From Peribacillus kribbensis DSM 17871 (GTDB lineage Bacteria > Bacillota > Bacilli > Bacillales > DSM-1321): DNA of 64,000 bases. How positions within the stretch are numbered: the first letter of the stretch is position 1; each line of letters starts with the position of its first letter. The notes beneath the pieces were generated by a model. The model worked only from the letters and a program-made list of their open reading frames with translations, was not told the origin of the DNA and did not search any database. The translations under genes were made by a program, and so were the position numbers. The stretch is from assembly GCF_000430765.1 (NCBI RefSeq), contig NZ_KE387239.1:179372-243371 (forward strand), given 5' to 3'. Of this stretch, positions 60,276 to 64,000 are shown one piece after another.

Positions 60276-60380
60276 TGATAATAAAAAGGCTGTAGAAAAT
60301 CTTACAAATGAAGTGCATGTGATTGGTAAACATCTTATTATCAAATAAAATACAGTTGCTTAATGAAAGGGAGATTGCTG

Positions 60381-60563
60381 ATGCCGTTATTAAGGGATGC
60401 TGTAAAAAAGAAGAGGAAGTTTATTATTCAAAAGCTGATCAAAGCCGGGATTTACAATGATACAGACCCTGAAATTGAAAGTTTACCCCTGGGGCAGCTG
60501 GAAAAGGATTATGACTATTTTATCCTTGGCGCAGGCGCAGCAAAGGATCTATTCAAGAGGTGA
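60381..60563 (+). CDS. FbpA-like Fur-regulated basic protein
   Basis: A 60-residue protein: LLRDAVKKKRKFIIQKLIKA, GIYNDTDPEIESLPL, QLEKDYDYF. The order basic helix, 'GIY', then 'L..LE.DY' fits the Fur-regulated FbpA family, which in B. subtilis works with the FsrA small RNA in iron sparing. ATG at 60381 follows AAAGGGAG. ATTATC-like half-sites upstream (~60333-60339 and 60275-60282) could belong to a Fur box but no full 7-1-7 match is seen. Confidence 0.65.
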   Translation: MPLLRDAVKKKRKFIIQKLIKAGIYNDTDPEIESLPLGQLEKDYDYFILGAGAAKDLFKR

Positions 60564-61347: not shown

Positions 61348-63666
61348 ATGAGCGATACCCATTTAGATTGGAACAGCGAGCAGGAAAGAATTGACCTTAT
61401 AAAAAAGGAGATTAACAGACAACAGCATGTTCTCAGAGGGAAATCAGGTTCTCTTAAACAGGGCATTATCGGGCTTAGAGAGACCTTTTGGGAAGATGTG
61501 ACTGTTAACTTAGATGAGCCGGATGATATTATTGAGACACAGGCGAGCCTCAAACAGCAGGCTGAATTGTTATCTGAAAGAGAACGGAGCCATGGTGTTA
61601 TTCATGAAACCTTAAAAAAACTGGCAAGGCTTGAGAATACTCCTTACTTCGGCAGAATCGACTTTAAGGAAGAAATTGAACCCCAAACGGATGAAATTTA
61701 TATTGGCATCGCCTCTCTTTTAGACGAAGCAGAGGAGAACTTTCTTATATATGATTGGCGCGCACCTATTTCGAGTATGTATTATGATTATCCACCAGGT
61801 CCAGCCTCTTATGAAACCATGGACGGCAGGATTGAAGGTGAGCTGGAGCTGAAGCGGCAGTTTATCATTCGTCACGGAAAGCTGAAAGGACTTTTTGATA
61901 CCGGTCTGACCATCGGGGACCGCCTGCTGCAGGAAATGCTCGGCAGCCAGGCAAATACCAAAATGAAATCCATTGTTGCGACCATTCAAAAAGAACAAAA
62001 TCAAATTATCCGAAATGAAAAAAGCAAAATATTAGTGGTCCAGGGGGTGGCCGGCAGCGGGAAAACGTCGGCAGCCCTGCAGAGGGTTGCTTATCTGCTC
62101 TACTCCCACAGGGAGACTCTTGATTCAAAAAATATGATTTTGTTTTCCCCAAATCCACTGTTCAATAGTTATATTTCAACGGTGCTTCCCGAGCTTGGCG
62201 AGGAAAATATGCGGCAGACGACGTATAAAGAATTCATGGAATCCTTGGTTGGCCGTGAATTCGATGTTGAGGATCCCTTTATGCAGATGGAAATGTCGCT
62301 TTCCGGCCAAAGCCCGGAAAGGATGAGTACCATCCCTTATAAAACCAGCCTTGAATTTAAGCATCTGATAACTAAGTATACCGATCACCTGGCACAGGAG
62401 GGGCTGATTTTCAGAAGTATATCCTTCAGAGGCAAAACCTTGATCCCTGCAAATCGGATCCACAGCTTTTTTTATACTCTGGAAAACCACATTTCGATTC
62501 CCAACAGGATCAGGCTGACAGCCGAGTGGATCTTAAAAGAGATTGCTTTGTTGGAAAAAGAAGAGCGTGAAGAGGAATGGGTTCTCGAAGAAATACAGCT
62601 TCTTGATAAAGAGGACTACCAGGAAGTGCATCAGGAATTGCAGAAAAGAAACCGGCGCCTGAATGAAACCTTCGGTGGCAGTGACCAGGAAGAGGCATTG
62701 CTGCGGAAAAAACTGGTGAGCAGGTACTTCAAACCAATTCGTAATCGGGTAAAGAAGTTTCGGTTTATAGATTTACCAGCTGTCTATTCGAAACTTTTTA
62801 AGGAACAGCACAGCTTTCTGAGCGGAGAGCTGCCGGAGGAGTGGAAGGCTGTCTGTGAATATTCTCTGAAATCCATGGCGGACAGGACCCTGCTATGGGA
62901 GGATGTGACACCATATCTATATTTCCGTGACCAATTGATCGGACGAAAGTCTTTTTCGGAAATCCGGCACATCTTTATTGATGAATTCCAGGATTATACT
63001 TCCTTCCAGTTCGACTATTTGAAAGAGCTCTTTAAGATGTCAAGCATGACGCTTCTCGGTGATTTTAATCAGGCCATCTACCCTCACTCATCTAAGTCCA
63101 GTACTTTGCTGGAAGAAAAAACAGAAGAGAGTGTGGAAAGAATTACGCTAAATAGAAGCTATCGCTCGACCCGGCAGATTGTTGAGTTTACAAGGGAGCT
63201 TATTGATGGACGGGAAAGTATCATTCCGTTTAACAGGGAAGGGAGTCGTCCTGAAATTATTAGCTGCTCTAAAGACGATCTTTCGGACCGGTTAGAAAAA
63301 GGCATTGAGGAATCACAGGCACAGGGGTATGAAACCATTGCTGTAATCTGTAAAACAGCTGGAGAATGTGATGACGTCTACCAGGCACTTAAAGATTCTG
63401 TTGACATACAAATCATGGATCAGGGAACCACCTCTTACAGCAAGGGGATTGTGGTACTTCCTGCTTATCTTGCAAAAGGCATTGAGTTCGATTCCGTCAT
63501 TATACATGACGCTTCCGAGGAATCTTATCACAGTGATTCGGAGCTGAAGTTATTTTACACGGCCTGCACAAGGGCCATGCACAGACTTATGCTGTTTTCA
63601 CCAGGAGAAGTCAGCCCTTTTATTCAAAAAGTTCCAGAAGATAGATATTCTTTTAAAAAAATGTAA
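61348..63666 (+). CDS. helD: RNA polymerase recycling motor HelD
   Basis: A 772-residue UvrD/Rep-like ATPase, the length of B. subtilis HelD (YvgS). The N-terminal coiled-coil (NSEQERIDLIKKEINRQQHV) inserts into the RNA polymerase secondary channel in that family. Walker A VQGVAGSGKTSAAL is near 235, Walker B IFIDEFQDYTSFQ near 543, the GDFNQAIYP motif near 570, and motif VI FYTACTRAMHRLMLF near the end. It removes stalled polymerase from DNA. The ATG follows ATGGGAGG. Not followed by another gene of the system. Confidence 0.92.
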   Translation: MSDTHLDWNSEQERIDLIKKEINRQQHVLRGKSGSLKQGIIGLRETFWEDVTVNLDEPDDIIETQASLKQQAELLSERERSHGVIHETLKKLARLENTPYFGRIDFKEEIEPQTDEIYIGIASLLDEAEENFLIYDWRAPISSMYYDYPPGPASYETMDGRIEGELELKRQFIIRHGKLKGLFDTGLTIGDRLLQEMLGSQANTKMKSIVATIQKEQNQIIRNEKSKILVVQGVAGSGKTSAALQRVAYLLYSHRETLDSKNMILFSPNPLFNSYISTVLPELGEENMRQTTYKEFMESLVGREFDVEDPFMQMEMSLSGQSPERMSTIPYKTSLEFKHLITKYTDHLAQEGLIFRSISFRGKTLIPANRIHSFFYTLENHISIPNRIRLTAEWILKEIALLEKEEREEEWVLEEIQLLDKEDYQEVHQELQKRNRRLNETFGGSDQEEALLRKKLVSRYFKPIRNRVKKFRFIDLPAVYSKLFKEQHSFLSGELPEEWKAVCEYSLKSMADRTLLWEDVTPYLYFRDQLIGRKSFSEIRHIFIDEFQDYTSFQFDYLKELFKMSSMTLLGDFNQAIYPHSSKSSTLLEEKTEESVERITLNRSYRSTRQIVEFTRELIDGRESIIPFNREGSRPEIISCSKDDLSDRLEKGIEESQAQGYETIAVICKTAGECDDVYQALKDSVDIQIMDQGTTSYSKGIVVLPAYLAKGIEFDSVIIHDASEESYHSDSELKLFYTACTRAMHRLMLFSPGEVSPFIQKVPEDRYSFKKM

Positions 63667-63757
63667 AAAATCTGGATAATGATGTTTACAGTATAAAACT
63701 GGTGGTAAATAAAGAATGTAAGACAAACATTCTCATAAACCAAAGGAGATGATTGAC

Positions 63758-63826
63758 ATGAGTACAATCAAAAACCCATGGAATAAAGAGAATGAAAGAG
63801 CCATTTATAGTCCGGGCGATCATTAA
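63758..63826 (+). CDS. micro-peptide 1 of a tandem pair (22 residues)
   Basis: ATG at 63758 sits 9 bases from AAGGAG. Reads MSTIKNPWNK then ENERAIYSPGDH and stop. Aligned without gaps to the second peptide at 63934 it shares M, T, K, N, W, K-E-N, A and S-P-G-D (13 of 21). No hydrophobic signal peptide, no Cys. The family is not recognised; it might be a precursor or signalling peptide. Confidence 0.7.
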   Translation: MSTIKNPWNKENERAIYSPGDH

Positions 63827-63933
63827 TATCGCCTTATGGACTCATTTCGGAAACAGCTGTCAAGCCAGTATCATTAGCAGGATTCCATTTAAGCACACAT
63901 GCAGCATAAGAAATGCTAGAGGAGCTGAATGAA

Positions 63934-63999
63934 ATGAAGACTCTAAAAAATTTCTGGCTGAAAGAAAATGACGAAGCGGTATTCAGTCCGGGCGATTAA
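63934..63999 (+). CDS. micro-peptide 2 of a tandem pair (21 residues)
   Basis: ATG at 63934 lies 10 bases from AGGAG. Reads MKTLKNFWLK then ENDEAVFSPGD and stop one base before the window ends. Both genes share the exact 12-base stretch AGTCCGGGCGAT at their 3' ends, while elsewhere codons differ with conservative replacements (I/L, E/D, I/V, Y/F), which suggests selection on the peptide. More copies may follow beyond the edge. Confidence 0.7.
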   Translation: MKTLKNFWLKENDEAVFSPGD

Positions 64000-64000
64000 G

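Follow-up and report, generated by a model that had tools for sequence, protein, structure and literature searches.

GsiB is a SigB-controlled, hydrophilic stress protein that is built of repeats, and the hydrophilins in general are recognized by a glycine content above 6% together with high hydrophilicity, and work by bulk. Very short ribosomal peptides, some of them encoded in tandem, include the PqqA-type precursors and the YydF epipeptides; PqqA is a RiPP precursor of 22-24 residues. Ldr and Ibs are type I toxins encoded by tandem micro-ORFs, and their products are hydrophobic membrane peptides. Finally, Prli42 of Listeria is a stressosome-linked miniprotein and a membrane protein.

The array of micro-ORFs described here has something in common with each of these systems. 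Like GsiB, it has a stress promoter and a hydrophilic repeated unit of about 20 residues, but each of its repeats is a gene by itself, with a Shine-Dalgarno (SD) sequence of its own and a strict motif, and they have no Pfam or NCBIfam match. Like PqqA and YydF, the peptides are very short and encoded in tandem; unlike them, they have no maturation gene among the neighbors tested and no leader. The original prediction had noted a loose resemblance to YydF and had rightly set it aside. Tandem very short ORFs are shared with Ldr and Ibs, whereas the array peptides accompany a stress promoter and strong ribosome sites, and the short-ORF sequences are hydrophilic, which separates them from type I toxins, i.e., hydrophobic, membrane-spanning peptides paired with an antisense RNA. 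The likeness to Prli42 lies in the tiny size and the SigB field, and the difference in the lack of a membrane segment. With the SigB general-stress regulon of B. subtilis and its relatives (PMC9847131), the array shares GTTT-N15-GGGTA at the expected place; its products differ in being separate ORFs of 21-23 codons from a family without a described member, known from sequence alone.

The window, i.e., the whole stretch of 64,000 nucleotides that was analyzed, comprises bases 179372-243371 of contig C3 in a genome of 5.05 Mb. Within its final 320 bases lie a promoter, a leader and a pair of short ORFs (Table 1). The coordinates originally given for these consecutive ORFs of 22 and 21 codons are exact, each ORF does have an SD sequence, and their gap-free, end-to-end alignment is borne out, with 13 of 21 residues identical by eye count. 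The two ORFs are the visible start of a larger array that extends past the window. It had been suggested that more copies be sought past base 64000, and indeed a third short ORF and a long form lie beyond a run of N in locus L003, which covers the DNA past the window end (window 63758 is L003 2130). These further copies, the long form and the SigB-type promoter (63684-63708) go beyond what had been predicted. The spacing from the second to the third short ORF is 411 bases, as against 43-107 between neighbors elsewhere; thus, further copies probably lie within the 357-base N run. The contigs of several relatives (L071, L082, L083, L090 and L091) likewise stop inside the array.

Table 1. Features at and beyond the end of the window (window positions, unless prefixed by L003)
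Feature	Position	Strand	Basis or remark
66-codon ORF, presumably resembling Fur-regulated basic proteins (FbpA-like)	60363..60563		
HelD	61348..63666		NF041464, 1155.7 bits; ends 92 bases before first short ORF
SigB-type promoter, -35 element GTTT	63684..63687	+	GTTTACAGTATAAAACTGGTGGTA, 74 bases before first ATG
SigB-type promoter, -10 element TGGTAA	63703..63708	+	sequence inspection, promoter motif scan
Leader inverted repeat AGAATGT-AAGACAA-ACATTCT	63713..63733	+	leader comparison
Leader box (G)TAAGA(CAAA)CATTCTC	63713..63734		precedes first SD
CATTCTC box	63728..63734		right half of leader repeat
SD AAAGGAG, short ORF 1	63742..63748	+	SD survey
Short ORF 1, MSTIKNPWNKENERAIYSPGDH	63758..63826	+	22 codons; profile match E 1.9e-13, own genome
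SD GAGGAG, short ORF 2	63919..63924	+	SD survey
Short ORF 2, MKTLKNFWLKENDEAVFSPGD	63934..63999	+	21 codons; profile match, own genome
N run, 357 bases	L003:2373-2729		starts directly after window base 64000, inside array
Short ORF 3, MSTLRAFWNKENDEAIFSPGDTE	L003:2783-2854		third short copy, past window
Long form, MNTSSNYWHKEEQEALTKIGDKHAFHISQNLLDESALLNADVSKKLEFDVTGTALNIL	L003:2921-3097		58 codons; ends EFDVTGTALNIL
Terminator-like hairpin	3' of long form in L003		strict hairpin rule

The claim that conservation lies in the peptides and not in the DNA was supported. Across 63 copies of the module, which represent 45 distinct DNA sequences, the in-frame pN/pS is 0.198, versus 1.761 and 1.235 for the same sequences in the shifted frames. 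The value is 0.158 for the short forms (31 distinct sequences) and 0.320 for the long forms (14 distinct). It is uneven within groups, reaching 0.535 among the short forms of the P. simplex group (four distinct sequences only) and 0.523 among the long forms of the genus of our strain (three distinct sequences). These values indicate that the codons are under purifying selection in the peptide frame only, which argues that the short peptides are real products. The gap-free identity of the leader and intergenic stretches was spoiled by indels and was left out. Every ORF in the arrays listed has an SD sequence 9-13 bases before the called start codon; the P. simplex group has two adjacent start codons. 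The consensus of the module is W-N-K-E-N-D-E-A-[IV]-x-S-P-G-D. All 22 rows of our short-peptide profile share residues W8, E11, A15, G20 and D21; some of these rows were chosen by a rule that requires the W.

The original prediction had named frame-preserved homologues in related genomes as its touchstone, and the outcome favors the peptides, with 63 copies selected in frame and with profile members in 34 of the 43 genomes of the Peribacillus-containing family (best E about 1e-16 to 1e-11 per genome; four members in our strain). By the same search, array-bearing genomes fall in two of the family's four genera. Named records, from a set of 23 loci, are Peribacillus species or “Bacillus sp.” Outside the family, searches of the order, the class, phages and plasmids found no convincing match. 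Among 397 genomes of the order there were 12 matches in the family and one of 10 residues, and among 398 genomes of the class we found our strain and one 15-residue match (E 6.7e-4, about 0.3 expected by chance), at whose locus a motif scan saw no similar ORF. The long-form profile matched five of 249 genomes of the order, all inside the family. A phage or plasmid origin was also considered and rejected: tblastn with one 23-residue query against 50,697 phage and 72,556 plasmid records returned nothing at E up to 10; with a query of this length, the search has weak power. The short ORF does occur on one viral contig (L092), where it lies in the chromosomal border of a prophage, next to an integrase.

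The arrays vary in their makeup. The number of short ORFs runs from one, in most of the P. simplex group, to seven in L081 (P. deserti), and in most arrays the last ORF is a long form of 49-59 codons, composed of the repeated module, a linker and a tail, [TR]-[PL]-E-[FY]-[DE]-x-x-G-T-x-L-N (alignments A2 and A4). In G009 and in our strain, the long form has kept its tail, but its module has drifted; in five of 12 P. simplex-group loci (L070, L073, L074, L080 and L084), the tail is shortened and the short ORF is intact. Module and tail can thus decay separately. Genome G019 (L035, reverse strand) has one standard short ORF, three copies that read SQNRLRNPEIF(E/K)AIFSPGD and no long form. In these three copies, N-P-E-I-F stands in place of W-N-K-E-N-D, and EAIFSPGD or KAIFSPGD is retained; therefore the W is not universal, and the C-terminal half can stand without it.

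This variation bears on whether the short ORFs act in cis, as leader peptides or stalling uORFs that regulate the translation or stability of the long-form mRNA. Such a role would agree with the shared transcript, the order of short before long, the conserved leader box before the first SD, and the S-P-G-D with which each short ORF ends near its stop codon. However, it is the long form that has decayed in the five shortened loci, the array of G019 has four short ORFs and no long one, and the long form itself bears the same module. We therefore regard a cis role as rather improbable.

The promoter would connect the array to general stress. The motif G(T/A)TT-N14..17-(G/T)GGTA occurs at -67 to -77 before the first ORF in 21 of 23 arrays, compared with 338 of 41744 random 130-base windows (0.8%) from the same loci. 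The other two arrays (L086 and L087) have GTTT-N15-GGGAA, and a looser rule, GTTT-N14..16-(G/T)GG(T/A)A, covers every one of the 23 arrays whose 5' end is readable. The rule was defined once the arrays had been seen, and the 23 promoters represent some six independent clades, with 12 coming from one species group (P. simplex). The count leaves out L036 and L037 (same genomes as L088 and L089), L071 and L082 (5' end outside the contig) and L038 (a degenerate first short ORF that the scanner missed). Among the -10 elements, 19 are GGGTA, two are TGGTA and two are GGGAA, with N15 or N16 after GTTT. As a lineage control, the same motif was found about 840-860 bases before sigB in all 20 sigB loci fetched, which were drawn from the 40 genomes above the SigB cut-off and of which five came from array-free genomes; from the operon order, this is presumably where the rsbV promoter is to be expected. 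On the rsbV side of the sigB operon in our strain (L097), the -10 element is GGGTAA. The array's own TGGTAA is one base off the GGGTAA of relatives and two off the GGGTAT of the published SigB consensus, GTTTAA-N15(+/-2)-GGGTAT; the same source lists promoters that combine GTTT with GG(G)AAT as further candidates (PMC9847131).

SigB (TIGR02941) scores above cut-off in our strain (428.6 bits) and in 40 of the 43 family genomes. The array is present in 34 of the 40 genomes with SigB and in none of the three without (Fisher P 0.0068, relatedness ignored). The genomes lacking both are G006, G007 and G061, two of which belong to the same genus and may be sisters. Six genomes with SigB (G003, G004, G008, G030, G034 and G065) go without the array, which is thus dispensable. 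With such a promoter in a host that has SigB, the array would belong to the SigB regulon, and its induction is predicted.

Between promoter and first SD, the leader box is found in 17 of 17 distinct leaders, small changes aside. Its right half, CATTCTC, occurs in 16 of the 17, with TATTCTC in the other, and the inverted repeat is perfect in our strain and in L089 and imperfect in the others. The leader-box pattern GTAAGACATTCTC has 27 exact matches in 26 of the 43 genomes, 26 of them at arrays; its reversed control matches in 10 genomes, so only the position of the box is telling. For the same reason, use of the box as a regulon mark was set aside. When folded, most leaders have CAUUCUC paired with GAGAUG (-3.8 to -6.5 kcal/mol). 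Box and SD are both fixed and the intervening 4-9 bases vary, an arrangement that would suit a hairpin that hides the SD. Across the leaders we found no compensatory change for such a hairpin; L087 alters both sides, and the pairing is not restored.

The array is best read as a self-contained operon. A strict terminator-like hairpin lies 3' of 13 of 23 arrays, as against 25 of 2345 random windows. (A first, looser rule scored 23 of 23 arrays but also 1487 of 2402 random windows and was dropped for the strict one. The count leaves out L036, L037, L083, L090 and L091, which lack a 3' end or are duplicates, and in L035 the search for the terminator was moved 370 bases downstream, the scanner having left the W-less copies uncalled.) At the other end, homology to L078 in the P. 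simplex group sets in a little upstream of the promoter (-85 from the ATG in 11 of 12 loci, -94 in the other), and beyond this point the neighbors differ. The stretch upstream of the promoter, beside topB, holds different genes from genome to genome (L069-L080, L084 and L092:2990-5072), and in L092 it holds a prophage end with an integrase. The site looks like an integration hotspot; no att-site duplicate of the leader of at least 14 bases was found in the upstream DNA covered at 13 loci of the group.

We annotated 12 distinct neighbors from five genomic settings, in addition to HelD, the RNA polymerase recycling motor; all are housekeeping or accessory genes. In the genus of our strain, helD lies upstream of the array and a methyltransferase gene downstream; HelD is likewise found next to the array in L081 and L083. 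The array adjoins topB in the P. simplex group. An acyl-CoA dehydrogenase, CdaS and Fe-ADH flank it in L085-L088 (CdaS in three of these), IclR and EmrE in L089, and a Mn-pyrophosphatase in L090 and L091. The neighbors tested were topB, ABC-F, an acyltransferase, Fe-ADH, CdaS, acyl-CoA dehydrogenase, the IclR regulator, EmrE, Mn-pyrophosphatase, an AMP-binding enzyme, a nitroreductase and a methyltransferase domain protein (one clade only). None of these is constant across the arrays in the five settings, and none is a peptide maturase, a receptor or a dedicated exporter.

Two proposals of the original prediction turn on these neighbors. The first is that the short ORFs encode precursors of a modified peptide; in its fuller form, this would be a ribosomal peptide akin to PqqA and matured by enzymes encoded elsewhere. 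The size, the tandem copies with small variations and the conserved core would all be in keeping with it, but in at least five settings the tested neighbors include no maturation enzyme (among the five, no radical-SAM, YcaO, lanthipeptide or peptidase gene), and the short ORFs show no division into leader and core. This proposal is thus not supported, and we judge it improbable. The second is that of intracellular signal peptides, of which the intracellular part fits and the signaling part does not, there being no receptor gene among the tested neighbors. A related possibility is that the peptides are exported, cut and re-imported as signals in the manner of Phr, NprX or PapR. Their shortness and conserved C-terminal half (SPGD plus two residues) recall such signals; yet the short ORFs examined have neither a signal peptide nor a hydrophobic stretch, in agreement with the lack of a hydrophobic leader noted originally, and the tested neighbors include no Rap/Rgg-type receptor. 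Both the export signal and the receptor that mark secreted signals (Phr, NprX, PapR and SHP) are thus absent from the ORFs and neighbors tested, and we consider export very improbable. As the sequence lacks an export signal and neither a maturation gene nor a receptor gene accompanies the array, action in the cytosol is what is left.

As had been surmised, the peptides fall in no known family: the short form has no match in Pfam, NCBIfam, PADLOC or PHROGs, and the long forms match these libraries only below any cut-off. Rfam gave no match at gathering score in five loci (67259 bases). Searches of the PDB by sequence yielded chance matches only (best E 3.9), and by fold they yielded nothing (best E 9.6). 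The long-form profile retrieved 40 proteins among 5.8 billion, none of which has a Pfam domain or a functional name; those named at all are “hypothetical” or “uncharacterized.” We found no paper on this micropeptide among the open-licence literature. Within the libraries and literature searched, therefore, both the peptide family and the arrangement, with separate tandem micro-ORFs of which the last has a tail, are new. Gene callers usually apply a length limit that these genes do not reach, which is why a conserved, putative general-stress operon of a soil genus has no name. An AlphaFold2 model of the P. deserti long form is poor and mostly unstructured (mean pLDDT 64.9, pTM 0.27), with a short helix of low confidence at residues 9-16.

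Such a model raises the possibility that the peptides are disordered, hydrophilic stress protectants without a specific partner, comparable to GsiB and the hydrophilins, with tandem copies serving to raise the amount. The SigB-type promoter, the multiplied copies and the hydrophilic sequence are in line with this idea. Nevertheless, the invariance of the five residues named above, in a profile partly selected for W, is too strict for a bulk effect, and most copies have one glycine per 21-23 residues, below the hydrophilin threshold. We regard a protectant role as unlikely. The five invariant residues and the low pN/pS favor a specific contact over bulk chemistry.

Our preferred explanation, held tentatively and with confidence a little short of even, is that the array is a SigB-type operon of tandem genes of 21-23 codons that delivers multiple doses of a stress-induced, soluble micropeptide, predicted to dock on an intracellular partner. 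Under general stress, SigB would switch on the array promoter, and each short ORF would be translated separately, such that one transcript would yield several molecules of one peptide, with the copy number setting the dose. The peptide has no hydrophobic leader and would stay in the cytosol, where it could act in trans by docking on a partner protein. Judging by its conservation, W-N-K-E-N-D-E-A-[IV]-x-S-P-G-D may be a short linear docking motif, perhaps with a helix (weakly predicted) across N-K-E-N-D-E-A-I and, after it, a turn at S-P-G-D. The long form might carry this module, or what is left of it, together with another conserved motif, EFDxxGTxLN, and the short peptides and the long form would then share, or compete for, one partner. 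We opt for a docking peptide, again with confidence a little short of even; the poor long-form model, the empty PDB fold search and the G019 copies without W count against docking. More doubtful still is the fuller proposal of a new kind of stress effector, in which SigB fires doses of a leaderless, 23-residue docking peptide and the ratio of short to long forms, changed by recombination within the array, tunes a single target. If our preferred explanation is correct, stress control in the Bacillaceae would include peptides whose dose depends on gene copy number, and the conserved module with S-P-G-D would provide a ready bait for a target search.

Three database proteins deserve separate mention. 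P0002 and P0003, of 104 residues each, join a short and a long form; compared with the related DNA, this fusion looks like a product of gene calling on short metagenome contigs, with TAG read as Q, and not like a real protein. P0016 is a long form that starts with 12 residues matching its relatives' short ORF, as would be expected from recombination within an array.
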